Positions 10,801-34,919 of a stretch of DNA of 40,752 nt are shown in pieces (positions within the stretch are counted from its first letter, which is position 1; each line of letters opens with the position of its first letter). The notes beneath the pieces were generated by a model. That model saw only the letters and a list, made by a program, of their open reading frames with translations. It was not told the DNA's origin and did no database searches. The stretch comes from a virus: IMG/VR virus record IMGVR_UViG_3300027969_000191, positions 1 to 40,752 of that record. One strand, written 5' to 3'. The translations under genes were made by a program, and so were the position numbers.

Positions 10801-13800
10801 AATGGATTTACATTAACTGTGCGTGACGCTAATTGTTGTGTTACGACATTTGCTGATGTGTAAGGTAAACTAAAATAATTTACATAACCATCTGAATTAA
10901 TAGAATAACCTAAACCTGTTTTAGCAGAAGCTGAAATTTTACCCATATTGTAGGCAAGAGCCAACGATTTTAATGGGAAGTTTTCTACTTGTTGTGTTGC
11001 AGTCATCTGCCTTGTTCTACGATTGATAGTGGCAGAATAATCATTGTTAGTTGTATCTGCTGTTGCATAAGAACTAAAGTCATCAACAAGAATACCGTTT
11101 TTGAAACGATTTAATCCAAACGCATCTTGTATTTGTAATGATTGAGTATTTTGCTCAAGCATATTCAATGATGTATAGTATTCAATATTATTAATACGAC
11201 TTTCAATAGCTGCAATATCTTGCATTGTATATCGTTTATGCTTAACTTTAACCATAGAAAGGTCAGAAACAGTACCTCTTGGTGCTTCTGTTGGAATATA
11301 ACCAGTATATGGAGTATGTGTTAGTTCTGCAACTACCAATGATGCATCTGGTTCAGCCGGGAATAATGGTGTAAGTGATGGAGAACCTTCAACAACTTGA
11401 AAACTTCTATCTTTACTTAATACCAATTTATCTCTACGTCCGAGATAATATGTGTAATCTGCACGGAATATTGATAAATCTACCGGTAGATAAGCACCGT
11501 GTATTGGATCACCAGAATTTGCATAACGGTAGATAAAATCTGCTTGAGCATTTTTACGAGCAGGCCTAAAATCAATACAATCTCTTAAAGCATATATTGT
11601 TCCGTGTCGGCTTGTATATTGTGGAATACTTTGATATAATTCTGGTCTAGAAGAATTCAAATAAGAATAAACACTAAAATAACCATCACCACCTGCGTGT
11701 TGATAATAATCAACTAATACTAATAAATTACCAATTGGTTGTGATGCACCAGGTTTTAATGTTATAGTTGCATGGTCATAGAATGAATCTCTTTGGCCAG
11801 GATCAAAGTTATAGTTATTGGTAACATCATTTGATGTATATGACAACATAGCTGCATTTGCTGCTGTTGCAGGATTTTTAGTATCAATAATTTTAACAAT
11901 TCTTTTTACATCTGATAGATATAAACTTTGACTTGAACCTGGAGTTACTAAACCTGCATTTTGAATGTACACTTGACCAAACGAAGTTAAAGCAGTATCA
12001 TCAACTTTGGTATAAGTATTAACTGTTGTGCCTGAAAGATTAACTGCTATTGTATTTGCAGTAATTAAATTTTTAGTTTTAAGAACTGTAGGATTATTAG
12101 CATCTGTGGCATCTACTCTAACAATGACAGTAGCATCAAATTCACTATAAACACTTGATGTAAGAGTTGCTTTAGAAGCAGTACCATTTATTTCTACTGT
12201 TTCTGTTGGAGTAATCCAAGGAACAATATCACCTGAATTTAAACCAGACGATTTAGGATTAGTAACAATTATAGTAAAGTTTTGTCTTACTGTGTCTGTT
12301 GATAGTGTTGAATTGTTTGCACCATAATGGCTCATACCAGTTGGAACATCCAATTCAGCAACAACATCTCCACCTGAAGCTTGAAATTGAACACCACGGA
12401 ATACTTGTTGTGTTGTGTATGATGTATCTGTTAGAGTTGCAACATATGGGTTACCAACAGTAAACAACATTTCTGGAATAGTAGGATTTTCTAAAATTGT
12501 ATCACCTGAAGATAAACCACCAACTCTACTATCTAGGCTAATTGCAGAACTTGCTAGAATATGTCGAGTTGTATTTGCGGACACAACAGCCTCAACATCT
12601 TTAATATCAAAATTCAAAGAAAATGTTGAACTGCTTGTTGGTGTTACAGTCCACGGTTGATTAACTGTTGCGACTTTAGTTGAACCATTATATGCTGTAA
12701 TTGTTCTAAAGTCTCCAGCAGAAACACCAGCTATAATAGAAATGGTTACACCAACATACGCACTATTCATTGCAGAATATGTTGCAGGTAATGTAATTGT
12801 TGATGTTGCACCAGCAACTGCGTTAGCAGAAGGAGAATTTGTATCAATGTCATTTACATATGCTTTATACACATAAGTGTTTGCGTTGGTACCAGTACCT
12901 TGGTCATAAACCAAAGCACGAATATAACCATCACCAACTAAAGTAGCATTATAGGTGGCAGATGAAGTTGTATCAACATTTGCTGTATCTACACAATGTA
13001 AATCAATAGTTTGTGTAGAAGTTACATCAAAGTATCCTGTATTTGCACCACGAACATTATCTAGATAGAAATAAGAACCAAAATCAATGTATACAGGATT
13101 ATTATTATTTGAGCCTGTTGTTCTTGCACGATTAGAAACTAAATCAATTGGTGCTTGGTTTTCTAAACGATATCCTTTAACATATGCAAGGCCTTTACCA
13201 ATAGATATTGTATATTTGGTGAGGTCCTCATTAGTTTTTGGAGTTAATTTGAAATCATTAACAACATAATCACCATTAGTTTCATAATCACGTTTAGCAA
13301 AATAGTCATCAATAACATTATAAACAGAACCGTCAACCATTTTGGCAACAGAACCATCTGTAACACGAACTAACTCAATAAAGTCAGCATCATCACCTAA
13401 AGTTAAAGGTCGTGTATCTAATGTTAAACTAATTTGATAACGGTCTGCACCTGGAGCCTGATAATTTGATGCACCAATAGCTGGATCCAATAAAGAAGAA
13501 TCATCAATGTAGTCTTGTATTGTTTCTGAAATAGTTAAACCAACACGCACACTTGGTGTACTGTCATACTTACTTAATATAATAGTGGAAGGTGAAATTT
13601 GAACAAAATTACCAAGAACGTAAAAAACACCTTGAGCAATAGAAGCAACTGATGAAACACCAGTTGAATCGGCCGCAAGTGCTTTTATAGCTAAATTTGA
13701 ATTAACATCATATACAACATCATCATCAACAAAATGATTACCTGATAGGTAAGAAACCACTAAAGTATCTGGATCGCCGTTTGCAGCTGCAGAAACGGCC

Positions 13801-14123
13801 AATACACGAGCTATTACTGTACCTACATCATTTTGAATTAATAAACCAGTCCATTGTGTTATATCAATAGCTGAATTCAAATATGTGTCTTGAATTTTAA
13901 TATAGTAAACACCAAAGTTTGTTGTTACTTGGCCACCAGTTACAGGTGAATTTTGTTTAAAAATATTATCTGCAAATTTGGTAATTTGGTCTTGTAGAAT
14001 AGTTTGAGATTGTGTTAGTTCTCTTGCTTGAACAGCATAGCCAGGTTTAAAAAGAATTCTATGAAAATTCTTTGTCTGGTCAAAATCATCATAATATGGA
14101 TCTACGTTAAAATTCAGAGGCAT
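7818..14123 (-). CDS. Giant baseplate/tail structural protein with DUF4815-type N-terminus
   Basis: 2101 residues, the largest gene here. The N-terminus (PLNFNVDPYYDDFDQTKNFH, then RILFKPGYAVQARELTQSQTILQDQI) is the DUF4815 signature of large baseplate-associated proteins in marine T4-like phages. The body is beta-rich. Around residues 1870-1950 a DGGANY...A.V.NGVIDYIYLTNPGSGY module occurs, a domain also seen in gp6, gp7 and gp8 of this window. The protein follows gp8 after 10 bases, with ribosome site AAAGGGA, in the place where T4 has gp9/gp10/gp11. It probably fills the baseplate-periphery or fibre-attachment role of those proteins. No enzymatic motif is visible. Confidence is high that it is a structural protein and moderate for the specific role. 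Confidence 0.8.
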   Translation of the reverse strand: MPLNFNVDPYYDDFDQTKNFHRILFKPGYAVQARELTQSQTILQDQITKFADNIFKQNSPVTGGQVTTNFGVYYIKIQDTYLNSAIDITQWTGLLIQNDVGTVIARVLAVSAAANGDPDTLVVSYLSGNHFVDDDVVYDVNSNLAIKALAADSTGVSSVASIAQGVFYVLGNFVQISPSTIILSKYDSTPSVRVGLTISETIQDYIDDSSLLDPAIGASNYQAPGADRYQISLTLDTRPLTLGDDADFIELVRVTDGSVAKMVDGSVYNVIDDYFAKRDYETNGDYVVNDFKLTPKTNEDLTKYTISIGKGLAYVKGYRLENQAPIDLVSNRARTTGSNNNNPVYIDFGSYFYLDNVRGANTGYFDVTSTQTIDLHCVDTANVDTTSSATYNATLVGDGYIRALVYDQGTGTNANTYVYKAYVNDIDTNSPSANAVAGATSTITLPATYSAMNSAYVGVTISIIAGVSAGDFRTITAYNGSTKVATVNQPWTVTPTSSSTFSLNFDIKDVEAVVSANTTRHILASSAISLDSRVGGLSSGDTILENPTIPEMLFTVGNPYVATLTDTSYTTQQVFRGVQFQASGGDVVAELDVPTGMSHYGANNSTLSTDTVRQNFTIIVTNPKSSGLNSGDIVPWITPTETVEINGTASKATLTSSVYSEFDATVIVRVDATDANNPTVLKTKNLITANTIAVNLSGTTVNTYTKVDDTALTSFGQVYIQNAGLVTPGSSQSLYLSDVKRIVKIIDTKNPATAANAAMLSYTSNDVTNNYNFDPGQRDSFYDHATITLKPGASQPIGNLLVLVDYYQHAGGDGYFSVYSYLNSSRPELYQSIPQYTSRHGTIYALRDCIDFRPARKNAQADFIYRYANSGDPIHGAYLPVDLSIFRADYTYYLGRRDKLVLSKDRSFQVVEGSPSLTPLFPAEPDASLVVAELTHTPYTGYIPTEAPRGTVSDLSMVKVKHKRYTMQDIAAIESRINNIEYYTSLNMLEQNTQSLQIQDAFGLNRFKNGILVDDFSSYATADTTNNDYSATINRRTRQMTATQQVENFPLKSLALAYNMGKISASAKTGLGYSINSDGYVNYFSLPYTSANVVTQQLASRTVNVNPFSVSIVEGTTILSPNVDNWVDNKAAPALLITDPNLQVFQANEGSLNVLSAGDWKAISGTTTSSSFNVEGHGINPSPFGRVGYTQTTQTTTTLSAKSDILGPYNNISNTYALNNGYITDISVLPYVRQQEIVTVGKNMLINTRIHAYFDKTDCTNFVRKANVIELSNTSSKFAENDVIGYYTGGVFYPTARVLGVYNYPATSNTRLYVAADAQTTTYTTNGVIQNGFYNTSGGYQANTDAGIVISTAHYGGQVRQSTGDAIGTMDPTGTTVQLSVLASDVNDFYVDKRIYFTQLSNPKYNTLITAYDGATRIATVSPAITVTKGNIYSIDSLYTNEEGAFHGIFSVPPNYFHTGQRVFRFDNSINDNPNYNIPLSESYYSPNFDTATTFAEGTFYSEGLQTTSQRVDFGASPSGAKGTFTSTQYATSTEITTRFSPWDPVAQTFIVSKDNYPNGMFLNSIKLYFSGKPTGDNSPVTLYMVGTQNGYPNGETLDHSIVTKTPSQVNVSTTPQFLDPLAYTQFDFSAPLYIQPGVLYAFIVKTSSSEYTLWTAANGDTALSSSVKNLPTDPIPSTITKIGSAPYVGALFISQNSQTWTADQNQSLMFVMDRCVFDITANPSIQYVVPNRLPNRTLIDSSLEYYLNANNVSNTYNAMANTDVYVDAFNITTTDFTPTTTSISYSYNATLLNDTAAGSQNIIPGRFGTATQDDIYLNDGKGERKLDANSNTSFSLYSQLSTTDDAVSPIISDAGLSVYAIRWNINNCELSNSIISIIDGGANYNVSNAIVTISEPTTAGGDQAYASANVVNGVIDYIYLTNPGSGYIETPTVTVSVSGGSASGALATITGETSKNGGPASAKYVSKKVVLDAGFDSGDLNVYLTAYRPANTDINVYYKILNRNDTQKFDDGSWQLMTKTNNSDSVFSQTRDSTYEYTFAPGTGGVDQGFISYTGLNGQTYNSFSQFAIKVVLTSTDHTFCPVVNDMRVIALPNNVNTTV

Positions 14124-15527: not shown

Positions 15528-18428
15528 TTAGGGTACTGCCGGATAATTAGTGGTTTTTACATATGTTGAATAAATTTTAGCTCCACTAAAATGTCCTGTC
15601 CAGTGAGCTAACCATGGATAAAGTCCACCTGTACCGTAGGCAATTTCACCAATACCCATTGTGTTAAAATAAATCCATTTTGATCCATCCCAATATACAC
15701 GCTCATCACCATATATGTAGTCTGTTTTACCATTAGTTACAGTTGCTGGTTGCATCTTGCGCCAACTTTGACCGCCGTAGAATGGATCACCGTAAGGACC
15801 ATCCATTAAAACCCAAGCTGTTGCATCTGGTTCAGCTGCATTAAGAGGGTCATCTTCACCTATACGAGGTTGTTCGATAGCTATTGCAGTAGATTTAAAT
15901 TTTACTTTAGATTTTAATGCATATCTACCAATCAATTGCATACCAGTTGGATGTAACAAATTCAATAATATATCTCGGTATTTTGCAATTGCTTCTGTTA
16001 CTGTAATTTGATATGTATAATTGTTATATATCTTACTTTGTAGAACGGAAAATGAACTTGGTTGACCAAAAGAATTCAAATATTTTCCTTGACTGATAGT
16101 TAAACCATTCAAAAATATTGCAGTTGCTTTTGCTGTACCATCACCATATCGTCTTATACCATTATTATTATAAAATTCATTATATGCAAAATTAGCCATA
16201 ATAAAAGTCATATTTTTACCATCAATATTCAATGTGGAAGTTGGTACTGGATTAGAATTATAGTTATAGACCCTAATTCTATAAACAGATTCTAATGGAT
16301 TGGCATAAGGTTGTAATAGTTGTACAGAATCATAATATGATATGTAAGTGGCAGTTACAAGGTCGTCGCCTTGATAAACAATATCACCTTTTGTTGGTAA
16401 ATTTCCAATATCAACATTTGTTATTATAATGTCTTGAACTTTTAAAGAAATACTAGGAGCTGCAATGTAATCTTCACCATAATTTGAAATACTGATTGTT
16501 ACAATTTCACCCACATTATCATATTTTGGTTCAAGTATAGCACCTTCACCTAAAATTCCATCAACATAAATTTCTGCATTGCAAGCCTGAACATTGGCTG
16601 AATTTATAGTAAGTGTGGGTAATTGTGTCAAACGATAACCCATACCACCAGTAGGATATTCTCCTGTATCTCCAACATATTCAATATTTAAAATTCGTCC
16701 ATTGGCTGCAACGTTGGTTACATTGGCAAAAGCACCATAACCAGAACCACCAGTAAATATAACCGTATCATTAGCCATATAACCTTCACCACCATCGGTG
16801 ATTTGAATAGGTCCTAATATTCCTAATGAACCTATTGAGTTACCTGCTACATTCCAATATGCGGAATTTAATCCATTATTTGTTATAGGAAGTCTATTAA
16901 TATTATTTTGAACACAAAGGTAACTCAATCCATTATAAGTAACTATATCACCAATCTCATAATTAACTGTACTTGCCCAAATTGAAGGAGTTATATCAGT
17001 TGGATAAGAAGCTATAGCAGTAACTACTGGAATTTTATTAGTAGATATACCTCCACCACCATTTTTTACTAAAATAGATGAGAGTGGGTAAGTTGAAAAA
17101 GATTGCATTGTAAAAGCATCATATAATTTTGTAGTTAAATTAGCAGCCGGAAAATTATAATCCGTAACGATATTATAAGTTAAACCAGTTAAAGTGCCAA
17201 TAGAAGTAGTTATTGGTGAATTACCTGCTGTGTTTAAAGTGAAAGCCGTTACATTTGGCGATGTACCTGTTACAGTAGAAACTTTATAAGTTGTACCTGA
17301 TGTATAACCAGTAATATTTCCAGTACCACCTAATGTACCAGTAATAATAATAAAGTCAGTATTTGCGATGGCAATAGTATCACAACTAAACTGACCAGCC
17401 GTACCTGTAATAGCTATATTTGCAGCTTCATTTGCAGGTAAAATTCCACCAACCCGAATAAATCTTTTTAATGCAATTGTATTTGATGGAATAAAAGAAA
17501 CATTACCTGTTTTAGTTGGATCCGGATTTACAGAACCAACTTCTGCGAGAGCTCCTAACGCATTAGTAATACTTATTACTGTGTTTGGATGTTCTCTATA
17601 ACCATAACCACCAGTTAATACGTTAATACGTTCAATTGCGCCTGTTCTAACTTCACCAACAGTTGCTTCAGCACCAATGCCTGTATTTGAATTTAATCCA
17701 CCATAAGCAATTACTGGATCGCCAGCTGCATATAATAGTCCACGAAAATTTGGATTAATTTTAATTTGACTAATTTGGCCAACAATTTTTGCCCGTAAAG
17801 GTTGACCATCAAATAAAACATCTTGATTGTTACTATCAACAACACGGACAAATTCACCTGATTGAAATAGTCTTTCAATATTGGAGATGAATACTTCTAT
17901 TTTTGTACCTGCATCTATGGTATTTTCTACTGTTGCAATAGATTTTGATGTTTCACCAAACAATCTATAATTATCAATATTCAAAAAGTTTATATCATTT
18001 GTAGCCAGTCGTAAACTTTTGGCAACATACCAAAGACCAGCAGAGGCCTTTAATACCGCATCTTTTGTATAAAATAAATCAAAATCAGAATTATAAAGAA
18101 CTCTGAATAAAAATTGATATGATGCTGGTGTACCTTTAGTTTGATATAACTCTTTAGCAACTTTGGTTGCCAATTTCTTATCAACTAGTGCATCTTTTGG
18201 AAAATAGGGTAAAAAATCATTAGTAAAATATTCTAAAAATTCATTAGTGGTTCTATCAATGTCATCATAGTTTAATAAGTTCTTTGAACCATCAGTAACA
18301 CCACCTTCTTGTTCCATCCACTCATAGTAGGCTTGCAAGAAAGTAACAAATTTTTCATAGTCAGGATTATCCCTAACAAACTCAGGGAGTTGTGAGGGTA
18401 TTAGAAATGAGGTTCTTTGGTCTATCAT
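15528..18428 (-). CDS. gp7: Baseplate wedge protein gp7-like
   Basis: 966 residues (T4 gp7 is 1032). The N-terminus has SQLPEFVRDNPDYEKFVTFL, then QAYYEWMEQEGG and YTKDAVLKASAGLWY, the signature of the large wedge protein in aquatic T4-like phages. Several GGYGY/GGEGY beta modules follow, around residues 275-300 and 555-615. Residues ~484-525 (IWASTVNYEIGDIVTYNGLS ... YWNV) resemble a small carbohydrate-binding module of the CBM5/12 type. The C-terminus is rich in aromatic residues (WVLMDGPYGDPF, VYWDGSKWIYFN, GLYPWLAHWTGHF). Start ATG overlaps the gp6 stop codon by one base (TAATG), so translation is coupled. Assignment rests on order (gp6-gp7-gp8), size and the N-terminal signature. Confidence 0.8.
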   Translation of the reverse strand: MIDQRTSFLIPSQLPEFVRDNPDYEKFVTFLQAYYEWMEQEGGVTDGSKNLLNYDDIDRTTNEFLEYFTNDFLPYFPKDALVDKKLATKVAKELYQTKGTPASYQFLFRVLYNSDFDLFYTKDAVLKASAGLWYVAKSLRLATNDINFLNIDNYRLFGETSKSIATVENTIDAGTKIEVFISNIERLFQSGEFVRVVDSNNQDVLFDGQPLRAKIVGQISQIKINPNFRGLLYAAGDPVIAYGGLNSNTGIGAEATVGEVRTGAIERINVLTGGYGYREHPNTVISITNALGALAEVGSVNPDPTKTGNVSFIPSNTIALKRFIRVGGILPANEAANIAITGTAGQFSCDTIAIANTDFIIITGTLGGTGNITGYTSGTTYKVSTVTGTSPNVTAFTLNTAGNSPITTSIGTLTGLTYNIVTDYNFPAANLTTKLYDAFTMQSFSTYPLSSILVKNGGGGISTNKIPVVTAIASYPTDITPSIWASTVNYEIGDIVTYNGLSYLCVQNNINRLPITNNGLNSAYWNVAGNSIGSLGILGPIQITDGGEGYMANDTVIFTGGSGYGAFANVTNVAANGRILNIEYVGDTGEYPTGGMGYRLTQLPTLTINSANVQACNAEIYVDGILGEGAILEPKYDNVGEIVTISISNYGEDYIAAPSISLKVQDIIITNVDIGNLPTKGDIVYQGDDLVTATYISYYDSVQLLQPYANPLESVYRIRVYNYNSNPVPTSTLNIDGKNMTFIMANFAYNEFYNNNGIRRYGDGTAKATAIFLNGLTISQGKYLNSFGQPSSFSVLQSKIYNNYTYQITVTEAIAKYRDILLNLLHPTGMQLIGRYALKSKVKFKSTAIAIEQPRIGEDDPLNAAEPDATAWVLMDGPYGDPFYGGQSWRKMQPATVTNGKTDYIYGDERVYWDGSKWIYFNTMGIGEIAYGTGGLYPWLAHWTGHFSGAKIYSTYVKTTNYPAVP

Positions 18429-21738: not shown

Positions 21739-22479
21739 TTAAATTTCCATTGGTTTTGTTGGTGGTGATGTTGCCCATCCTCTATTGCCTATGTGAACGT
21801 GTTGATTAACTTTTAATCTAAACATTGCCACAGAACCAAATATATCAGATACCATTGGAGCAAACATTGAAATACCAGCAGTAATTTTTGTTGCAGCTAT
21901 CATGTAACCTGTAGTTTCAACACTCTTATTTGCAGATACAGATAGGCCTGCTGTAATATTACCAACAGCGGCTATACTTTGTGTTGTTGATACATCGCCA
22001 CGAATATTTAAATCTGCATTGATATTAACAGTTGTGGCTGATAAATTGATAGCACCAGATGCGTTAATATCAAAATCACCTTCAACGGTTTGTTCACAAT
22101 CACCTTTAACGATTTGATTTATATCACCATCAACTTGTTGATATACTGTACCATCAACTTGTTGATATGAATCTCCTTTGACATGAAGAACTGAATCTCC
22201 ATTAATTGTAATATTACATACACCTTGAATTAATACATTTTTATCAGATGCAATAATTTCATAACCTTTACCTACAATTTTATATACAACATCACCATTA
22301 GGATGATATTCGGTAAATGAACCTGCACGGTGCTGAATACGCACCCTCTCTCTAGTTGGAGTGTCATCCATTTGAATTGAATGACCAGATTCGGTTTGTT
22401 GTATATTATTATACGGGTAAACCGGTGGGTAATCTGTATTAGCCGCCGATTCTGGTTCTGTCCATGATAAATCTGCCAT
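21739..22479 (-). CDS. gp5: gp5-like beta-helix needle protein (spike tip), no lysozyme
   Basis: 246 residues. Residues ~90-160 form a run of short repeats typical of the triple-stranded beta-helix of T4 gp5C and VgrG spikes (INGDSVLHVKGDSYQQVDGT, YQQVDGDINQIVKGDCEQTV, EGDFDINASGAINLSAT). Residues 40-65 contain VRIQHRAGSFTEYHPNGDVV, seen at the start of gp5/VgrG needles. The C-terminus has NQHVHIGNRG and ends PTKPMEI. The protein starts with an OB-less region and contains no lysozyme domain. The OB domain is encoded separately at 23147-23440. It overlaps the preceding gene by one base. Inferred role: membrane-piercing spike below the tail tube. Confidence 0.85.
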   Translation of the reverse strand: MADLSWTEPESAANTDYPPVYPYNNIQQTESGHSIQMDDTPTRERVRIQHRAGSFTEYHPNGDVVYKIVGKGYEIIASDKNVLIQGVCNITINGDSVLHVKGDSYQQVDGTVYQQVDGDINQIVKGDCEQTVEGDFDINASGAINLSATTVNINADLNIRGDVSTTQSIAAVGNITAGLSVSANKSVETTGYMIAATKITAGISMFAPMVSDIFGSVAMFRLKVNQHVHIGNRGWATSPPTKPMEI

Positions 22480-23138
22480 TATGGTTTCTCAATCTTTATT
22501 GAAGTAGAAGAACCAGCTGTTGCATTATTAGCTGCTTGGTCTGCCGCCTCAGCATCCAATAACTCTTTAACATCAGCTTTTGTAACTATTACTTTAGCGT
22601 TTGAAATAGCATTTGTAAGGCCTGAAGTGACAGCGGATAAACACTCTTTTAAAAGTGCTGCTATTTTTGCAGGCAAAGAATTAATATAAGCAATTAACTG
22701 TTTACATAGATTGATAAACTTCTCAACTGCTTTTTGGTATTTTTGTATTTTTTTAATATACTTTTTTATCAAATCAACTTTTGCTTTAATTGCTTTGATA
22801 ACAGTTCTAACTTCATCCGCAAACGGAGAACTTGAAGATCCTGCCCATGCAGCTTGTACTGCTGTTCTAATTTTTTCAACTATCTCACTAGTTTTTAAAG
22901 ATGCTAATGCAATACTATATTGTAAATTACCCGAAATATCACAAACGTGTGCTAAATTATCATTAGCGGCACCAACCGATGTATTTGCTACCTGACTTCT
23001 TGAAGCTGCAGGTTGAGTTGGATTACCTGAGGTATTTCCGTCATTTTTATTGACAGTAATAGGTGCATTAGTTTCAACAATTTTACCATTGACAACTTTA
23101 GTTTGAGCAACTATTGGGGGAGATTGTATTTCAGCCAT
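22479..23138 (-). CDS. Helical protein inserted between the two gp5 halves (219 aa)
   Basis: No recognised family. The N-terminal ~65 residues are low-complexity (NKNDGNTSGNPTQPAASRSQ). Residues ~75-190 are strongly helical and basic/amphipathic (VRTVIKAIKAKVDLIKKYIK, KIQKYQKAVEKFINLCKQLI, LPAKIAALLKECL). The end is AEAADQAANNATAGSS. It sits between the OB-domain gene (8 bases upstream) and the needle gene (1-base overlap), exactly where T4 gp5 has its lysozyme domain, but has no lysozyme motif. It may be a hub plug or chaperone for the spike, or an amphipathic membrane-active element. Function unknown. Confidence 0.7.
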   Translation of the reverse strand: MAEIQSPPIVAQTKVVNGKIVETNAPITVNKNDGNTSGNPTQPAASRSQVANTSVGAANDNLAHVCDISGNLQYSIALASLKTSEIVEKIRTAVQAAWAGSSSSPFADEVRTVIKAIKAKVDLIKKYIKKIQKYQKAVEKFINLCKQLIAYINSLPAKIAALLKECLSAVTSGLTNAISNAKVIVTKADVKELLDAEAADQAANNATAGSSTSIKIEKP

Positions 23139-23146
23139 TTAAAATC

Positions 23147-23440
23147 CTATTTTTGTAAACCAGGTAATACACCCATCATAATAGGTGCTTGACCAGACAT
23201 ACCATCCATAAAAAACCCAACAATCCAATCACCAAGACTCGGTGAAGAAAATGTTTTTGAATTGTTTAGAGGCAATAAAGGTTGAGCCCAAGGTAAAGAC
23301 TTTGTTGGTAAATCACTTGTGTTATCTGTGTGCCATCCAAAAATTCTCAATTGGCATCTTCCCATACCCAATGGGTCTGCACGGTTTTCTACAACACCGA
23401 TAAACCAAACAAATCCGTCTTTGCCAATAAAGTTTTCCAT
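23147..23440 (-). CDS. gp5: gp5 N-terminal OB-fold domain as a separate protein
   Basis: 97 residues reading FVWFIGVVENRADPLGMGRC, then QLRIFGWHTD, LPTKSLPWAQPLLPLN, LGDWIVGFFMDG and APIMMGVLPG. This matches T4 gp5 residues ~10-110 (NWFVGVVEDRMDPLKLGRVR; IPTEKLPWM; VYGHFLD; GIVLGTYGG), the OB domain that joins the hub gp27 to the spike. It ends after the OB fold where T4 gp5 continues into lysozyme and needle. It overlaps the gp27-like stop codon by one base, so its partner is made immediately before it. Together with the needle gene it represents a split gp5. Confidence 0.9.
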   Translation of the reverse strand: MENFIGKDGFVWFIGVVENRADPLGMGRCQLRIFGWHTDNTSDLPTKSLPWAQPLLPLNNSKTFSSPSLGDWIVGFFMDGMSGQAPIMMGVLPGLQK

Positions 23441-24822
23441 TAATCTGCAGCTGCCTTCTTCATTTCACTTGTATTAACATTACTATTGTAATTCTTAGGT
23501 GTGCTATCTTTAGCAATTTCTAAAAATGTTTGATATACTGTTGGTTGTATCACATGACGAACCGCAGTAACCAAATATTTACCAGAATAAAATTCATCCA
23601 ACTTTCTTTTATCGGATGGTTTTAAAGAAAGTAGATTAAAATTAATCGTTCTACCTGCTGTAATACCTGAATCTCCAGGAATTCTTATTTTTAATACTGT
23701 ATAGTTAGCCAAAGCAATTTGTGCTGTTCTATTTGGAATGTATGTTTCAACTGCAATATCTTTAGCAACAGAACCTGGTATTTGCTTTATATATGGCGCA
23801 TTGGATTGAAATGAATTACCCGTTGAAACTTTAAATGCCGCATCTGGTGTTTGTTGCTGAGTTAAACCTAATCTATTCACTAAATCATTTGAGACATTAC
23901 CCGGATTTAATGAAACGGCTCTTTTTTTGTAATCTGTATAATTAAAATCTGTTGTCTTAGCCGTTCTAGACATTGGATCCAAAGAAATCAATCTATTTGA
24001 AAAAGTACCAGATTGAATATCATCAACCATATCATAGGTTTTAACAAATTCATAATCAATTACAGTTATTGCTTTTTCTTGAAATGACATTGTTTTATTA
24101 TCTAAATTTTTAGCCTGATATTTGTAAGTAGTATAAATGTTTTGTTTAAACATTGATTGTAACGACCTAAAATAGAAACCATCTTTAGTTTCAAAAAATA
24201 ACATATCAGCACCAATTGAACCAGTCATATTTGGTCTGGCATAATTTGATAACCAGCTAATAGTTTCAAAAGGTTTAAATCGTGGTACAATAAAATCGTA
24301 CATACCAGTTGTTTCTTCAATAGTAGCAATATTCTTTGTTTTAACTTTTAATTTTTCAACCAAAACATCTTTTATAATGGCTGAAATCTTTTGACCATTA
24401 TATGCTTTGCTTATCTTTGTTTGTTCTGAAAGTATCAATTCTTCGGAACAAAAATGTAATGTATAATGTTGAGCAGTCATATTACCAGCAAGTGGCTTTC
24501 TGTCATCTATCTTATATACTCTGAATATTTGTTTGTTTTGATTTGGTGCATTTTTCATTTTACCAAAAGAAATTTCAACAAATTGATTACCGTTTAATTG
24601 TAAAAGTTCAATAAAACCTTGTGCATCAATAATTTTAACGTAACCAGAAACAACAAAGCTATAAATGTCCTCATAATAAGATAATTCAATCAAAATCTTC
24701 TTCATTTCAAATTTTTGACCAGATGCGGTCAAAAAATTCAAAGTTTCTAAAGAATAATCTTGAGTGTAATATGCACCAGGATTTTCTACTTGAGTACGAC
24801 TAGATTGTTCTATTTCTGCCAT
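23440..24822 (-). CDS. gp27: Baseplate hub protein gp27-like
   Basis: 460 residues (T4 gp27 is 391). The layout fits the hub family that includes T4 gp27, P2 gpD and VgrG N-termini: an N-terminal beta domain (ILIELSYYEDIYSFVVSGYV; FVEISFGK), a helical/beta middle with FKPFETISWLSNYARPN and MLFFETKDGFYFRSLQSMF, and a C-terminal beta domain with GKYLVTAVRHVIQPTVYQTF. Direct adjacency to the gp5 OB gene supports a hub that docks the spike. The residues after ~440 (NVNTSEMKKAAAD) are a short polar tail. Assigned from fold pattern and context rather than close sequence identity to T4. Confidence 0.75.
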   Translation of the reverse strand: MAEIEQSSRTQVENPGAYYTQDYSLETLNFLTASGQKFEMKKILIELSYYEDIYSFVVSGYVKIIDAQGFIELLQLNGNQFVEISFGKMKNAPNQNKQIFRVYKIDDRKPLAGNMTAQHYTLHFCSEELILSEQTKISKAYNGQKISAIIKDVLVEKLKVKTKNIATIEETTGMYDFIVPRFKPFETISWLSNYARPNMTGSIGADMLFFETKDGFYFRSLQSMFKQNIYTTYKYQAKNLDNKTMSFQEKAITVIDYEFVKTYDMVDDIQSGTFSNRLISLDPMSRTAKTTDFNYTDYKKRAVSLNPGNVSNDLVNRLGLTQQQTPDAAFKVSTGNSFQSNAPYIKQIPGSVAKDIAVETYIPNRTAQIALANYTVLKIRIPGDSGITAGRTINFNLLSLKPSDKRKLDEFYSGKYLVTAVRHVIQPTVYQTFLEIAKDSTPKNYNSNVNTSEMKKAAAD

Positions 24823-26941: not shown

Positions 26942-27538
26942 ATGGCATCTAAACTTACACAACTAGCAAAACAAAAAACTGCAGCTCAGCTACAGACGAT
27001 GGGTCGTGAATCTATCAAATGGTTAGGTAAAAAGATTTCCAATTTAAGTAATCCTTATGGAATTGCATCAACAGTTAATAGGGAACAATTTAGAACAAAG
27101 AATAGGTTTCATGTTGGTGGGTTATATTACTTCTATTATGACCCTAAAACAAAAAATGACTTACCATATTACGATAGATTCCCTTTGGTATTGGTATTAG
27201 ACATCCAACCAGATGGTTTTAGTGGTTTAAATCTACATTACTTGCCAATCCAATACAGAGTGGCATTTATGGACAAATTGATGGATTACGCCTCCCTTGA
27301 TAAGAATCATGACATAAAGCGTATGAGTGTCAGCTATGACATTCTATCGTCCTCCAGGCGGTTTAAAGAGTTTAAACCGTGTTTTAAGAGATACTTGAAC
27401 GGGTATGTTCAGTCAAAGATACTTGCCGTTCAACCAAACGAATGGGATATTGCGGTATTCTTGCCAATTCAACAGTTTAAAAAGGCACCTGTAACTGAGG
27501 TGTGGCAAGATTCCGAAAACCAAATAAGGAAACACTAA
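26942..27538 (+). CDS. Probable DNA end protector-like (gp2-like) virion protein
   Basis: 198 residues with the motif VGGLYYFYYDPKTKNDLPYY followed by DRFPLVLVLD...GFSGLNLHYLP, a strongly conserved pattern in many phage virion proteins. In T4 the gene next to gp4 is gp2 (gene 64), which caps the DNA ends in the head and protects them from RecBCD. Position and pattern support a gp2-like assignment, but T4 gp2 is longer (274 residues) and I cannot align them directly. The C-terminal ~70 residues are basic (SSSRRFKEFKPCFKRYL), compatible with DNA binding. The stop overlaps the next start by one base (TAATG). GATAAATAA just upstream may be a late promoter. Confidence 0.5.
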   Translation: MASKLTQLAKQKTAAQLQTMGRESIKWLGKKISNLSNPYGIASTVNREQFRTKNRFHVGGLYYFYYDPKTKNDLPYYDRFPLVLVLDIQPDGFSGLNLHYLPIQYRVAFMDKLMDYASLDKNHDIKRMSVSYDILSSSRRFKEFKPCFKRYLNGYVQSKILAVQPNEWDIAVFLPIQQFKKAPVTEVWQDSENQIRKH

Positions 27539-28266
27539 TGGCAGGCACAATTAACGAATTTAAATCTAGTTTCTCAAAAGACTTGGCAAGACCGAGCCGA
27601 TTTGATGTAAACATTCCTGTGCCTTTAACTTTGATACCTTATGTTAAAAATGCAAGAAATTTAGTATATCGTTGTGAAAATGCAAGTTTACCAGGTAGAA
27701 CTTTTGGTGGAATGGCTGAACAGAAGATTGGTTCAAACCCTGTTGAAAAATATCCAACACTAACAACATATAATGATTTAGATTTAACTTTTATCGTTGA
27801 TGATGATATGAGTCAGAGAGTTTTCTTTGATGCATGGATGAATTTTATCAATCCAACATACAATTATAATTTTAGATATAAGAGTGATTATGCAACAGCA
27901 ATCACCATTAATCAATATGACGTAACAAATAATGTTTCATATTCAATTAATTTATATGACGCTTATCCTATTTCTATGAATCAATTAGATTTAGATTGGT
28001 CATCTGATGGACACCACAAACTTGTGGTAACTTTTGCATATACTTATTGGCAAAACAATTCGTTACAAGCCTATGGTATGCAACTTGTTGATGCTGGTTT
28101 GTCTTTGGCTGCTGACATGGTTGGTGGTTTAGGTGGTAATGCAATAGGTGCTTTAGGACAACTTGGTAATAGTTTTTTAAACAGTATATCAAATCCGGAT
28201 CCTGATTTACCAAAGTTTGAAAACCATGCAGGAAGCGATTATCAAGCACCAAATGTAGAAGAATGA
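27538..28266 (+). CDS. gp54: Tail tube-like baseplate protein (gp54/gp19 family)
   Basis: I use ATG 27538 (MAGTINEFKSS), preceded by AAGGAAA, giving 242 residues; a longer GTG-started frame from 27502 lies inside the previous gene. Residues ~15-180 follow the tail-tube fold of T4 gp19 and gp54: RPSRFDVNIPVP, CENASLPGRTFG, YNDLDLTFIVDDDMSQRVFF, DAWMNFINP, and ISMNQLDLDWSSDGHHKLVV before TFAYTYW. T4 gp54 ends its tube domain with a very similar segment. The last ~60 residues are Gly/Ala-rich (GGLGGNAIGALGQLGNS), again as in gp54. It probably begins tail-tube polymerisation on top of gp48; a main tube protein is less likely given the extension and neighbours. Confidence 0.75.
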   Translation: MAGTINEFKSSFSKDLARPSRFDVNIPVPLTLIPYVKNARNLVYRCENASLPGRTFGGMAEQKIGSNPVEKYPTLTTYNDLDLTFIVDDDMSQRVFFDAWMNFINPTYNYNFRYKSDYATAITINQYDVTNNVSYSINLYDAYPISMNQLDLDWSSDGHHKLVVTFAYTYWQNNSLQAYGMQLVDAGLSLAADMVGGLGGNAIGALGQLGNSFLNSISNPDPDLPKFENHAGSDYQAPNVEE

Positions 28267-28293: not shown

Positions 28294-29019
28294 ATGGCTT
28301 TACCAAAACTTGATGTGCCGACATATGAAATTGAATTGCCGGTTTCAAAGAAGAAGATTAAATACAGACCGTTTCTTGTTAAAGAACAAAGAAACTTGTT
28401 GATGGCGATTGAATCAAATGAATCTGCCACCATACAACAGAATGTAAAAGATATTCTTTATAATTGTACACTAACAGAAAACATTGATATTGAAAAGTTA
28501 CCTATCATTGATGTGGAATTTTATTTTATTAATCTACGAGCTAAGTCTGTTGGTGAAGTTATAGAAACCAAATACAGATGTAATAACATAGTAGGTGAAA
28601 AAGAATGTAATAATGTTATGGAATCAACTATTAATCTATTAGATTTAAAAGTCCAAACTAAAGAAGATGTTTCTCCAGAAATTAAACTTACAGAAAACAT
28701 CAGTATTAAATTAAAATATCCAGAATTTGGTATTGTTAAAGATTCACTTCAATATGATGATGTAACATCTACCGCTTTTAATATGATTGCTGAGAGTATA
28801 GAATATATTTACGATGGTGAACAGTTCTATTATGGTTCAGAGGCAGAACCAGGTGAAATGATTGAGTTTATTGAAGGTATGAACCAGGAACAGTTTAGTA
28901 AAATTGAAAACTTCTTTAATAACTTACCAAAGTTAAAAGAAACGGTTCATATGAAGTGTGGTAAATGTGGGTTTGAGCATAATATAGATGTAGAAGGCCT
29001 TGAAAATTTTTTCGGCTAA
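28294..29019 (+). CDS. gp26: Baseplate hub/assembly protein gp26-like (0-frame product)
   Basis: 241 residues (T4 gp26 is 208). LPVSKKKIKYRPFLVKEQRN and LLMAIESNE near residues 15-45 are typical of the T4 gp26 family. Four cysteines form a likely zinc site (YRC, KEC near residues 91-101 and MKCGKCGF near 222-228). Ribosome site TATAGGAG is strong. The last sense codons are AAT TTT TTC GGC before TAA, which contain the classic -1 slippery heptamer T TTT TTC in the correct phase. The protein is therefore likely made both as this form and as a longer frameshift product. In T4, gp26 is required for hub formation. Here it sits between the tube protein and two tape-measure-like genes, the usual place of tail assembly chaperones. 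Confidence 0.85.
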   Translation: MALPKLDVPTYEIELPVSKKKIKYRPFLVKEQRNLLMAIESNESATIQQNVKDILYNCTLTENIDIEKLPIIDVEFYFINLRAKSVGEVIETKYRCNNIVGEKECNNVMESTINLLDLKVQTKEDVSPEIKLTENISIKLKYPEFGIVKDSLQYDDVTSTAFNMIAESIEYIYDGEQFYYGSEAEPGEMIEFIEGMNQEQFSKIENFFNNLPKLKETVHMKCGKCGFEHNIDVEGLENFFG

Positions 29020-29204: not shown

Positions 29205-31037
29205 ATGGATTACGGTAAAGCCAAAGACATACGAAAACAAGGACTTTCTAGCCTCATTACTGAAAATTTAGTGGGAGGCAAAGGCATTGGTTCGTCTTTT
29301 ACTTCTGCAATTTCAGATAGAACCAAAGCAACATTCACAGGCATCAAAGAATCTTTTGACCCACTCAATATCGCTAAGAAAATGACTGGTGGTTCTAAAC
29401 TAGCACCTGCATTACTTGGTAGAATGATGGGTAGAAAACAGGAAGATATAGAACACTTTTCAGGTAAACCAAAAAAATCAAAAGGATTATTTGGTGGACT
29501 ATTTGGTGGCAAAAGTAATGATAGTCGTGAAATGGCAGAATCATTAGGTTCAATTTATAAAGAACTTCAACGTGCATCCGAAGAAAAAAAATTAGATAAA
29601 CAAGAACAAAAAAATAAAGTTGAAGGTCAAGAGGCTGAAGAACAACGGCGTAATAGTGAAATTATTAAGGCAATAATTGGTACAAGAATAAAATCAACAA
29701 AATCCAATAAAGATAAAATTAAAGAAATAAAACAAACAGAAAAAGAAAAACCTTTTCGTGATGAAAAAGGAAGATTTGCTAAGAAACCAACTGAAAAAGA
29801 GTTTGGTAAAGAACCTACAACTCCTAGTGGGCCAACTGGACCTACAGTACCTACAACTAAAGCACCGGCACCATCAGCACCAACAGCACCACCATCTAGA
29901 GCTCCATCGGCCCCGGCACCATCAGCACCAACAGCACCACCATCTAAACCTCCAACAACACCGGCGCCATCAGCGCCAACAGCACCACCATCTAAACCTC
30001 CATCGGCACCGGCTCCTAGTGCGCCAACAGCACCACCATCTAAACCATCAGTACCAACTGCAACACCACAAGCTCCAACATCAATAATACCAAAACCTGC
30101 TGTATCTACAGGAACTAAAATTGCAGCAGGCACAGCAACCGCATTAAAGGGTCGAGCAGCTCAAGTTGCTGTTGCATTGGGAACTTTAGGTATTACGAGC
30201 AAAGCTGCTATTGGTGCCATAGTAGCCACATCAGCAAAAGAATCTGGCCTTGATCCATTTAAACCTGAAGATGGTGTAAAACCTTGGAAAGCAACATTAG
30301 AAAAAAGAGGTGTTGATTATCTTTATTTGAAATTTCCACAATTAGCCAAAGGTGGTCGTGTTGCAAAACAATTAAATATGCCAGATGGTGTTCCTGCTGA
30401 TTATATTAAACAAATTATGGATAAAGGTGATGAAGCATGGTTTACATTAGTATATCCTGGTGGCGCTGATGCATACAAATACAGAGGCCGAGGCCTTATT
30501 CAGATAACAGGAAAAGGCGTTTACAAATCTGTTGGTGATATTATTGGAATTGACCTTGAAAAAGATCCTGATGCAATAACAAGAGATTTTGATACCGCAG
30601 CAAAAGCGACAGGTGCTTATTTGATGAACTCTTTAGGACGTGGAGATTCTAAAAAAGGTTTGGCTGCTTTAAATGCTTTGTCAGATGAAAAAGAATCTTT
30701 AAAGGTGGTAATAGCCAATGTGGCTAGAGGCTTTGCTGGATCCGATAAAGATAAGATTGACAAAATGTTTGATCCTAGTTCAAATCTTGGCAAAACAACA
30801 GCTTCGCAATTGGAAGCTGCAAGCAAATATTCACAACTAGGTTCAGATGCAGCCTCAGGTAAACAAATAGACCAAGCATCCAAAGAAAACAAAGATTTAA
30901 AACAAACAACTAATGACAAACCAGCACCTAGTGTTGTAAATAATTTAAATGTAGATTCAAAAAATTCTTCTTCATCTAGAGAAAAACCAAAAGAAGAAGA
31001 TGACAGACCAGCTTTCTTAAAGAAAGCCAAAGGATAA
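29205..31037 (+). CDS. Tape-measure/hub-like protein with GH19 muralytic domain
   Basis: 610 residues. Residues 1-85 (AKDIRKQGLSSLITENLVGG, FDPLNIAKKMTGGSKLAPAL, LGRMMGRKQEDIEHF) are paralogous to the start of the next gene. Residues ~105-195 are charged and helical. Residues ~215-290 are a Pro-rich linker of PAPSAPTAPPSKP repeats. Residues ~310-540 form a GH19 lysozyme/chitinase-like domain: KESGLDPF (Glu346 probable catalytic), YKYRGRGLIQITGKGVY (427-440), and VIANVARGF. The tail VVNNLNVDSKNSSSS resembles the end of the neighbour. By family knowledge GH19 phage enzymes cut peptidoglycan. Placement between gp26 and late tail genes, far from lysis genes, suggests a virion-bound enzyme that cuts the wall during DNA entry rather than an endolysin. 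It starts 3 bases after the frameshift stop. Confidence 0.8.
   Translation: MDYGKAKDIRKQGLSSLITENLVGGKGIGSSFTSAISDRTKATFTGIKESFDPLNIAKKMTGGSKLAPALLGRMMGRKQEDIEHFSGKPKKSKGLFGGLFGGKSNDSREMAESLGSIYKELQRASEEKKLDKQEQKNKVEGQEAEEQRRNSEIIKAIIGTRIKSTKSNKDKIKEIKQTEKEKPFRDEKGRFAKKPTEKEFGKEPTTPSGPTGPTVPTTKAPAPSAPTAPPSRAPSAPAPSAPTAPPSKPPTTPAPSAPTAPPSKPPSAPAPSAPTAPPSKPSVPTATPQAPTSIIPKPAVSTGTKIAAGTATALKGRAAQVAVALGTLGITSKAAIGAIVATSAKESGLDPFKPEDGVKPWKATLEKRGVDYLYLKFPQLAKGGRVAKQLNMPDGVPADYIKQIMDKGDEAWFTLVYPGGADAYKYRGRGLIQITGKGVYKSVGDIIGIDLEKDPDAITRDFDTAAKATGAYLMNSLGRGDSKKGLAALNALSDEKESLKVVIANVARGFAGSDKDKIDKMFDPSSNLGKTTASQLEAASKYSQLGSDAASGKQIDQASKENKDLKQTTNDKPAPSVVNNLNVDSKNSSSSREKPKEEDDRPAFLKKAKG
29847..30075 (+). 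repeat. Pro-rich linker repeats (PAPSAPTAPPSKP), 4 copies
   Basis: In-frame repeats of about 16 codons with core APSAPTAPPS connect the helical part to the GH19 domain. Probably a flexible spacer. The repeats explain the long open frames seen on the opposite strand here. Confidence 0.9.
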
Positions 31038-31040
31038 AAA

Positions 31041-32513
31041 ATGGCAAAAATGGGATATCAAGACGCTAAAAAAATAAGAGGTCAATCTCTATCCAGTAGG
31101 ATTACAGACCGTTTAGTTGGCGGAGAAAAGATTAGTTCATCTATTGGAAAATCCATTTCAGAAGGCACTAGAGCAAGAATAACTGGCCTAAAAGAAAAAG
31201 TGGATCCATTGAATATCGCTAAGTTTATGATGGGTGGTTCTAAACTTGGTACTGCACTTGCTGGTAGAATGATGGGTAGAAGTCAAGAAGATATAGAACA
31301 TTTTACTGGTTCAAAGAGTAAAGGAAAAGGTACTGAAACTGCAAGTAAATTAGGTAAAGTTGAAGAAGGTGGTTCTTCATTAGACATATTGCATAAAATT
31401 TATAGTTTATTAAGTGAAAACAATTCATCTGAAAAATTGGCCAGAGAAGAAGAAAATAATATGGCTGAAGGTCGTGAAATGGAAAAGAAAAGAAGGCATG
31501 ATGAATTAATTGCCGCTATCAAAGGTATGGGAGGAAAACAAACTGCAACTGTTGTTGGTAAAGATAAAAAAGAAGAAAGTGGTGGTATGTTTGATAGTAT
31601 TATTGATTTCGTTAAAAAAATGATTGATGACATGAAACAATTCATACAACCAATATTAGATATGTTTACTGGTGAATTAATGAAATCATTACTTAGCTTT
31701 GGTCGTTTTCTTTTGGGTAATCCTGCCGTAATTGCTGCAATCGCTTGGGCAATTGGTATGTATAAAGCAAAAGAATTTTTGGATGATAGTGAATATGGTA
31801 AAAGAATGTCTGAAAATGAAGGTAAATTAGCTCAAAAAGCTTTTAAAGAAAAGAAAACAGATTTTACTCAATTAAAATTATCAAAAGATGATGCTCAAGC
31901 AATATTGGATCAACCAGAAGGTAAAGCAAAAACTAGAGATATTGAATCTTTTGGTGGAATAGAAAGAATACAAGCAATTGCTGCCGGCAAACCTGACCCT
32001 GGCGGAAAAAGTTTACAAAAACCTATTGATAATAATACTCCAACAAACCAAACTGCTGAATTTCAAGAAAAAAAATTATCTGTTATGCCAGAGACAGTTG
32101 AACCTAGGCCAACAGCAGGAGGTTTGAAAGGTGATTCAAAGAAAAAAACTTGGGATGAAAAATATGCTCAAAATTATAATCCTGATGGTACAAAGAAAGT
32201 ACCAACGGCAACTCCTGTAACTGCGCCAGCGGCTGCAGCGGCTGCAACTGCACCAGTACCTGCAGCTCCTGTTTCATCAACACCACCACCGCCCGTTTCA
32301 GCACCAACTAGTGCGCCATTAAATGAAAAGGTAAATGAAAATCAAAATTTAAATTTACCACCTACTCCTAATCCAGCACCAGCAACAACAGTTAATAATA
32401 CAAATGTTTCTAATAACAGTAAGCCACAACAAGCAATAGGTAAAATACCATCAGTTAGAAATACAGAGAAAACATTTTCTGATATGATATTATACTCTAC
32501 CAGAGTTGTATAA
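31041..32513 (+). CDS. Tape-measure/hub-like protein with membrane segment
   Basis: 490 residues. Residues 1-90 (AKKIRGQSLSSRITDRLVGG, VDPLNIAKFMMGGSKLGTAL, AGRMMGRSQEDIEHF) match the start of the preceding gene, and similarity extends to the EGREMEKKRRHDELIAAI region. Residues ~180-215 are amphipathic helix, then a hydrophobic segment at ~217-240 (LLSFGRFLLGNPAVIAAIAW, AIGM) able to span a membrane. A Pro/Ala-rich linker (residues ~395-435) and a C-terminal VNNTNVSNNSKPQ plus SDMILYSTRVV follow. Tape-measure proteins commonly carry such helices and enter the host membrane during infection. The role is inferred from this and from position after gp26; T4 has gp28/gp29 nearby. It starts 3 bases after the GH19 gene and ends at the convergent terminator. 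Confidence 0.75.
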   Translation: MAKMGYQDAKKIRGQSLSSRITDRLVGGEKISSSIGKSISEGTRARITGLKEKVDPLNIAKFMMGGSKLGTALAGRMMGRSQEDIEHFTGSKSKGKGTETASKLGKVEEGGSSLDILHKIYSLLSENNSSEKLAREEENNMAEGREMEKKRRHDELIAAIKGMGGKQTATVVGKDKKEESGGMFDSIIDFVKKMIDDMKQFIQPILDMFTGELMKSLLSFGRFLLGNPAVIAAIAWAIGMYKAKEFLDDSEYGKRMSENEGKLAQKAFKEKKTDFTQLKLSKDDAQAILDQPEGKAKTRDIESFGGIERIQAIAAGKPDPGGKSLQKPIDNNTPTNQTAEFQEKKLSVMPETVEPRPTAGGLKGDSKKKTWDEKYAQNYNPDGTKKVPTATPVTAPAAAAAATAPVPAAPVSSTPPPPVSAPTSAPLNEKVNENQNLNLPPTPNPAPATTVNNTNVSNNSKPQQAIGKIPSVRNTEKTFSDMILYSTRVV

Positions 32514-34376: not shown

Positions 34377-34919
34377 CTATATTTTTCTCTCACTATAAAA
34401 AATGTGATTACCTATTTTTGTTACGACTGGAAGTTTCCAACCGGGTTTTACATAAACTGCATGATAATACATTGCATTTCTTTGTGCTAGTATATCATGA
34501 ACAAAAGGTTCTGTCAAGGCCTTTCTTGCTACAATTAATGATTCTTGCCATTGGTATGGATTCCTAATCATTGTATGAACTGAGGTACACACCCATGAAA
34601 ATTGGCATACAGTAGAACCATTAATATTGTTCTTTTGTTTAACTACACCACAGACAGTATCTAAAAACTTGCCTGAATTAACACGGTTGATTGTAACTTG
34701 TGCTACTGCTAATTTGCCTTCAAATGTTTCGCTTGCTGATTCATAGTAGATGTTTTCAGCCAAGCAGTTTAATTCTTTACTGAATTCTGGACCAATATCT
34801 GCAATCATAACTTGTTGTGCGATATTTCTACTGGTCGGTATTGCAATGTTAATTGTTAATAGTAACAATGAAAATACTACTAATAAAGATGATGTTATTG
34901 TGTGTTTAATACGCATCAT
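34377..34919 (-). CDS. SleB-type cell wall hydrolase, endolysin candidate
   Basis: 180 residues. An N-terminal hydrophobic segment (residues ~9-28, ITSSLLVVFSLLLLTINIAI) acts as a signal peptide or signal anchor. The rest is a Hydrolase_2/SleB-type domain: LNCLAENIYYESASETFEGK, LAVAQVTINRVNSGKF, ...CQFSWVC, and AMYYHAVYVKPGWKLPVVTK. Glutamates near residues 55-67 (AENIYYES.SETFEG) are in the catalytic region of the family. These enzymes cleave peptidoglycan glycan strands. An exported phage version suggests a host-secretion-dependent endolysin, possibly released from the membrane at lysis. Ribosome site AAAGGAG is strong. No holin is recognisable in the window. Confidence 0.82.
   Translation of the reverse strand: MMRIKHTITSSLLVVFSLLLLTINIAIPTSRNIAQQVMIADIGPEFSKELNCLAENIYYESASETFEGKLAVAQVTINRVNSGKFLDTVCGVVKQKNNINGSTVCQFSWVCTSVHTMIRNPYQWQESLIVARKALTEPFVHDILAQRNAMYYHAVYVKPGWKLPVVTKIGNHIFYSERKI

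Follow-up and report, generated by a model that had tools for sequence, protein, structure and literature searches.

The stretch of DNA analysed here, called the window throughout, is a 40,752-base virus fragment of a T4-like myovirus. The lineage is aquatic and T4-like, kin to the pelagimyophages and cyanophages; its nearest isolates by gp6 include the Pelagibacter phages Mosig and HTVC008M and the Methylophilales phage Melnitz, at ~40% identity over ~70% of the protein. Because the window is a fragment, presence or absence can be called only for genes inside it, and gp5 is one of these. Its minus strand encodes gp48, gp53, a hub protein, the gp5 pieces, gp25 and gp6 (PHROG and Pfam matches), and its plus strand gp4, gp2, the tail tube and gp26, followed by two further genes; after these, gp32, gp59, gp33 and a SleB-type hydrolase lie on the minus strand. 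Of the two genes that follow gp26, the first occupies what we call the slot, and the products of both are referred to as slot proteins. The occupant of the slot in the window, the ORF at 29205–31037, lies among tail genes, as an initial sequence-only reading had said, with gp26 just before it and a tail gene that shares one of its domains just after. The features used below are as follows.

21739–22479, minus strand: gp5 piece 3, C-terminal spike part (PHROG 430, 1.4e-47; relatives match Gp5_trimer_C/Gp5_C)
22479–23138, minus strand: gp5 piece 2, middle part, no family match in profile searches
23147–23440, minus strand: gp5 piece 1, OB-type domain (PHROG 694/430; relatives match Pfam Gp5_OB)
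23440–24822, minus strand: tail protein at the hub position adjoining gp5 (PHROG 350, 3.9e-79)
27538–28266, plus strand: gp19-type tail tube protein (PHROG 45, 2.6e-41)
28294–29019, plus strand: gp26-type baseplate hub gene, the synteny anchor (Pfam PF12322, 1.1e-58; PHROG 150, 1.1e-64)
29205–31037, plus strand: slot protein, 610 aa, with N-domain, linker, GH19 cassette and C-tail (open frame, profile matches, AlphaFold2 model)
29205–29729, plus strand: N-terminal helical domain, residues ~1–175, common to the next gene (identity, hhalign, model)
29730–30125, plus strand: linker, Lys-rich then Pro-rich (translation, TRF, low pLDDT)
30126–30869, plus strand: predicted GH19 catalytic domain, residues ~308–555 (profiles, PDB phmmer, model, alignment)
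30133–30902, plus strand: exchanged segment, 770 bp (99.6% identical to contig L004)
30870–31034, plus strand: conserved C-tail (SKENKDLK...DDR type) after the cassette (alignments A1 and A3)
31041–32513, plus strand: second slot protein, 490 aa, with the same N-domain, a hydrophobic/helical middle and its own conserved C-terminus
34377–34919, minus strand: separate candidate endolysin, Hydrolase_2 (SleB type), with hydrophobic N-terminus (Pfam PF07486, 8.8e-22)

Elsewhere in the window, a wedge-region protein (15528–18428, minus strand) carries a chitin-binding-type CBM_5_12 domain at residues 484–509 (Pfam 4.5e-6), and a 2101-aa ORF (7818–14123, minus strand) stands where HTVC008M has its VrlC protein, a likeness by position alone.

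Anatomy of the two slot proteins

The sequence-only reading described the slot protein as a GH19 domain joined through a Pro-rich spacer to an N-terminal domain that recurs in the next tail gene, and each of these parts was recovered. The N-domain is 48% identical to that encoded at 31041–32513 over 176 aa (E 4e-35), profile–profile comparison with hhalign gives a probability of 100 (E 5e-50), and both N-domains are modelled as a run of helices, at residues 3–86 and 106–162 in the AlphaFold2 model of the slot protein. The spacer contains tandem repeats at 29862–30046 (TRF; period 48, 3.9 copies), and pLDDT is below 50 over most of the linker; the whole model has a pTM of 0.42. Alignment shows that the C-tail is conserved across the slot family. 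The N-domain of the window's slot protein had no isolate match up to E 1 among 50,697 phage records, and the second slot protein had none at 1e-5.

The GH19 domain is recognised by PHROG 181 (endolysin; 4.8e-9) and in PDB phmmer searches, where the best matches are 4ok7, the SPN1S endolysin (5.6e-6), 2cjl, a chitinase (7.2e-6), and 9eoi (1.1e-5). Pfam PF00182 scores 20.9 bits against a cut-off of 25.5 on the window protein (residues 421–469) and 25.9 bits in the relative L203, and it matches 20 of the 46 members of alignment A1 at E 0.1 or better (best 2.1e-10). A1 includes the second slot gene of L069 but not L062 (239 aa). The AlphaFold2 model of the domain (~308–555; pLDDT mostly 75–93) has the helical, lysozyme-like fold of GH19 enzymes: its nearest structures by VIA are GH19-type (7r6s, Z 14.9, 187 aligned residues; 4ok7, Z 12.0, 181 residues; 8xcl, 11.9; 9eoi, 11.5), and a Foldseek search with the slot protein model gave nothing under 0.001 (best 3e-3). 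Motif alignment predicts the catalytic residues Glu346 (codon 30240–30242) and Glu355 (codon 30267–30269). In spacing and motif, E346/E355 and Q433/T435 match E51/E60 and Q127/T129, the named active site residues of the muramidase PaGH19Lys (PMC12329726), and a Glu at +8 or +9 and the GRG...QxTG motif are retained in all 20 GH19 proteins of A1. On motif and model, the cassette of 29205–31037 is thus predicted to be a muramidase-type GH19 domain.

The second slot protein is a likelier candidate for the tape measure than 29205–31037. Profile searches found no hydrolase on it, comparison of its N-domain family with T4 gp29 gave a probability of 1.8 (hhalign), and profile comparison with gp208 of cyanophage S-CREM2 gave no significant similarity. 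Tape measures correspond to ~0.15 nm of tail length per residue. In S-CREM2 (L233:4984–14055) the two slot proteins total 3021 aa, or ~450 nm, close to the tail length of 418 nm, which would suit a measuring role for both. That 29205–31037 encodes the tape measure itself, tipped with the hydrolase, appears unlikely. The slot protein shares its position with the slot pairs of cyanophages and the annotated tape measure of HTVC008M, and the S-CREM2 slot proteins reach 1565 and 1456 aa in a phage with a 418 nm tail (PMC10665884). However, the confidently helical part of the window protein outside the enzyme covers only ~160 residues (~1–162 in the model), complete slot proteins range from 403 to 802 aa in total length, and the next gene fits the role better.

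Wall hydrolases at the slot and in gp5

T4 gp5 combines OB domain, lysozyme and C-terminal spike in one polypeptide; the window has three gp5 ORFs and no lysozyme. The sequence-only reading spoke of a missing gp5 lysozyme, which holds for the lysozyme but not for gp5, and we rejected a fragment artefact as the source of a gp5 absence since gp5 is within the window. The middle ORF as a hidden enzyme was also rejected, as it matches no PHROG and no cassette HMM. In relatives, gp5 shows the same three-way split or has its OB part fused to either the middle or the C part. Across 212 loci, of which 82 have a complete gp5, our cassette HMMs found no cassette domain in any gp5 ORF. The same HMMs detect the lysozyme of T4 gp5 (1.2e-17) and the GH19 domain inside gp5 of cyanophage BUCT-ZZ01 (5e-39), and thus the absence does not reflect blindness of the profiles. 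The best 25 of 76 Pfam families on relatives' gp5 included no wall hydrolase. When T4 gp5 was used as the query, its lysozyme segment matched slot ORFs only (8 matches), while its OB and C ends matched the corresponding gp5 ORFs; among the cassettes, sequence similarity to the T4 lysozyme is confined to the GH24 type of relatives and does not extend to the window GH19. Some cyanophage gp5 proteins are annotated "tail lysozyme" although they have no lysozyme-type Pfam match (e.g., L096:11784–14042), and such labels are likely a widespread misannotation.

The survey of hydrolases at this position that the first reading had proposed covered 208 IMG/VR loci with gp26, drawn as the best 80 of 292, of 309 and of 591 gp26 relatives and hence biased to near relatives. 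A complete slot protein was present at 147 loci, a cut one at 32, and at 29 there was none before the contig end; removal of identical proteins reduced the 147 to 113 distinct ones. All 113 from these best-80 samples carry a recognised or likely wall-hydrolase domain. Our HMMs class 106 of them: 40 GH19, 39 transglycosylase-like, 13 VgrG3-like, 12 GH24 and two VanY. The transglycosylase-like group, whose profile (A6, built with L086 left out) matches the phiKZ gp144 lytic transglycosylase at 6.8e-9, is a joined class of three sub-clusters at BLAST 1e-10 that are linked only at 1e-5. The L064 protein forms its own class, with weak phmmer matches to the virion protein Gp29 (8.9e-5) and an endolysin (0.02). 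Among the six unclassed proteins, Pfam assigns L138 and L224 to the VgrG3-like family (PF21277) and L170 to SLT, L139 and L159 are close copies of L138, and L191 looks transglycosylase-like, by eye only. Given these classes, glycan strands are the expected target of the slot enzyme at almost every locus. A wall-cutting domain on a tail-cluster protein, with none on gp5, had been suggested for the window and is a rule of the lineage (113 of 113 slot proteins; 0 gp5 ORFs of 212 loci).

Several loci have unusual arrangements. The slot protein of L086 (10909–12861) has two domains, transglycosylase-like and GDSL-lipase-like; L069 (10909–13892) has two slot proteins in tandem, VanY then GH19; and the first slot protein of L065 is VanY. 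In L017 (2207–2944) gp26 appears as two ORFs (108 and 134 aa), either a split gene or a sequence error. Extra ORFs lie among conserved tail and replication genes in L045 (near gp2, 518 aa), L061 (before gp32, 337 aa) and L071 (after gp32, 555 aa); as a guess, these are possibly homing endonucleases.

A slot enzyme was detected in nine of 18 isolates (S-SKS1, S-RIM2, DSL-LC02, ACG-2014f, ACG-2014e, Sf-FP1, S-RIM8, S-CREM2 and S-B68), and in two others gp5 had a peptidoglycan-enzyme match with none detected at the slot. These are BUCT-ZZ01, with GH19 on gp5 and no large gene after gp26, and Melnitz, with a weak M15-type match under the cut-off. In Melnitz (L229:14364–17407) gp5 lies in two ORFs, the second with the M15-type match and the first with a motif that looks similar by eye. 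Neither enzyme was found in seven isolates (P-SSM2, S-SM2, S-B64, P-TIM40, S-WAM2, HTVC008M and Mosig), although the S-SM2 slot gene is annotated as a transglycosylase. Loss of the gp5 lysozyme therefore does not strictly imply a slot enzyme, and we rejected the strict form of the rule. A phage with both enzymes, the case that would speak against the suggested relocation of the wall-cutting function, was not found among the 18. The gp5 scans were uneven: 10 of the 18 isolates were scanned against all Pfam, two of these being judged among the matches listed, and the others by whole-genome scans of selected families or by our own HMMs. SLT was not found in the 16 isolates searched for it, nor the VgrG3-like and PHROG 4067 families in the 10 searched for these.

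S-CREM2 provides virion data. By our HMMs, its gp208, whose gene is separated from gp26 only by a small ORF, contains a GH19 domain (3.6e-26), and gp209 combines a transglycosylase-like domain (8.6e-19) with a GH24 domain. Virion proteomics detected both proteins, by 73 and 71 unique peptides respectively (PMC10665884, Table 3); the authors place both possibly inside the capsid and give a carry-over warning for regulatory proteins (PMC10665884). The S-CREM2 pair resembles the window in its slot after gp26 and its wall-hydrolase domains but differs in that the proteins are much longer, gp5 lies downstream on the same strand and the N-domain family shows no significant similarity. S-CREM2 is distant from the window's clade, whose slot proteins are predicted virion components.

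It is very improbable that the slot protein is an endolysin for late lysis merely located among tail genes. Its sequence is most like phage GH19 endolysins, and the S-CREM2 authors call their slot proteins endolysins (PMC10665884). Against this reading, a separate SleB-type hydrolase is encoded nearby, in the window (34377–34919) and at many related loci, the slot protein bears the domain common to the next tail gene, and the S-CREM2 slot proteins are in virions (PMC10665884). We found no lysis context around the slot gene itself, which lies between gp26 and the shared-domain tail gene with the SleB-type gene separate.

Exchange of the catalytic cassette

The enzyme is an exchangeable cassette, and near-identical phages carry unrelated enzymes, an observation that is new here; no description of slot-enzyme swapping was found in the literature searched, which covered few subscription papers, and the portion of the S-CREM2 report consulted (PMC10665884) describes none. 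In the best-80 samples, enzyme class differs in 11 of 28 non-independent pairs whose gp26 proteins are at least 99.5% identical. Sharing of class falls from 17 of these 28 pairs to 13 of 49, again non-independent, at 90–94% gp26 identity, which equals the chance level of 0.27. In the pairs with at least 99.5% identity, the cassette has a median identity of 39%, against medians of 91–100% for the other genes compared (each gp26 bin capped at 120 pairs); the endolysin, compared in three pairs only, has a median of 91% and values down to 88%. In the four swaps where both SleB-type genes are visible, these are 100% (L027/L035), 97% (L088/L095), 97% (L088/L092) and 96% (L092/L095) identical.

Individual pairs illustrate the exchange. 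Between L009 and L016, gp26, tube, gp2 and gp4 are 100% identical, hub and OB 98%, gp48 82% and gp53 73%, while the cassettes, transglycosylase-like and VgrG3-like, are 23% identical. Between L043 and L044 the compared genes are 97–100% identical and the cassettes, both GH19, 45%. DNA identity often ends at the domain edges, as in L020/L021, where breaks at 11584 and 12201 compare with edges at 11581 and 12208; the left break of other pairs lies in the linker. The window shares with L004 770 bp at 99.6% DNA identity (30133–30902, residues 310–566), almost exactly the modelled domain; elsewhere gp26 is 76% identical, the N-termini are unrelated and other aligned stretches are at 70–78%.

All swap data come from metagenome contigs with nearly identical flanks, in which misjoining at conserved sequence could mimic exchange. 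Such an assembly artefact is highly improbable as the source of the diversity, because combinations recur across IMG data sets (L009/L010, transglycosylase-like; L012/L013, GH19), the segment shared with L004 joins dissimilar genes, the window's version of the slot gene recurs at 100% in contig L003, and slot enzymes differ among isolates too.

Possible causes of the swapping can be inferred from the same comparisons. It is conceivable, if short of an even chance, that swapping is neutral, any glycan cutter sufficing and recombination being frequent: glycan cutting is expected of nearly every class, and the flanks are conserved enough for recombination, but no other compared gene varies like the cassette in near-identical pairs. 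In slightly more distant pairs gp48, gp53, gp5C and a 270-aa neighbour vary too. L059 and L048, with gp26 98% identical, show a second variable spot, their gp5 middle parts being 28%, gp5C 47% and the 270-aa neighbours 32% identical.

That swapping tracks host peptidoglycan chemistry or host shifts is somewhat doubtful. A pelagimyophage study assumed that gp5 differences fit the host wall (PMC7029224), which would favour this cause; the endolysin, however, is 96–100% identical in the four checked swaps though it meets the same wall. In T4, Spackle blocks the gp5 lysozyme but not the T4 endolysin (PMC7677548), and because a swapped entry enzyme beside a constant endolysin recalls this asymmetry, the slot might be a front of phage–phage conflict, at which infected cells or resident phages would make periplasmic inhibitors that are escaped by swapping the whole enzyme fold. 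Such inhibitor escape, an argument by analogy, is in keeping with an entry enzyme that turns over fast while the endolysin stays constant, but we regard it as unlikely at present.

A proposed entry lysin with a replaceable enzyme

With a probability of roughly 0.8, we read 29205–31037 as a virion-associated entry lysin of a T4-like myovirus, with a swappable catalytic cassette and a split gp5 that has no enzyme. This reading builds on the observed gene order, domain content, freedom of gp5 from cassette-type enzymes, cassette exchange and endolysin constancy in four swaps. The slot protein has the mark of a tail lysin, a wall-hydrolase domain on a tail-cluster protein, and peptidoglycan cleavage at entry is the function predicted for its GH19 domain.

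Ejection, site of action, the role of the N-domain and the mechanism of exchange may be envisaged as follows. The N-domain, common to the partner, and the C-tail would hold the slot protein in or on the tail, the shared N-domain assembling it with its partner in tail or hub. Upon tail contraction, the GH19 domain on its flexible linker would reach the periplasm and cut glycan strands locally, opening the way for the tube, while the split gp5 would keep the spike and only pierce. Recombination at the linker and C-tail, whose conservation could supply the homology, would exchange only the cassette, putting in a different GH19 or a domain of the transglycosylase-like, VgrG3-like, GH24 or some other type, with no change elsewhere in the phage.

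The gp5 tail lysozyme of T4 has the same proposed job, its OB and C parts are homologous to those of the window, and its lysozyme is matched by some relatives' GH24 cassettes; in the window, however, the enzyme is a GH19 and is carried by the protein that follows gp26 instead of by the spike, and gp5 is split. In mycobacteriophage TM4, a hydrolase motif on the tape measure aids infection (PMC1796659), but TM4 is a siphovirus and its motif lies inside one long tape measure rather than being an exchangeable domain on a partner protein (PMC1796659). The hub gp15 of A-1(L) has lysozyme, endoglucanase and peptidase domains, an example of myophage entry enzymes at the tail tip (PMC10966104); unlike the window cassette, these are built into the hub protein (PMC10966104). 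Tape measures bearing hydrolase motifs, and hubs bearing enzymes, are thus known, and what is new is the fast, fold-changing exchange. Recent domain shuffling has been reported for endolysins, tail fibres and tail spikes (PMC10684548), and the same broad survey, in the part consulted, saw signs of mosaicism in tape measures, none of which it could confirm as genuine and recent (PMC10684548).

Tail entry lysins being already known, the finding is that in this aquatic T4-like lineage the enzyme is a replaceable cartridge. The swapping is a clear case of recent mosaicism in a protein associated with the tape measure; for this class that survey, as consulted, had no confirmed cases (PMC10684548). 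In phages with an enzyme-less gp5, the slot enzyme may be what cuts the wall. If inhibitor escape holds, it predicts cassette-specific inhibitor genes elsewhere in these genomes. The swapping thereby poses a testable question: does selection act on the entry enzyme via inhibitors, such as those of superinfection exclusion or host lysozyme inhibitors, rather than via wall chemistry?
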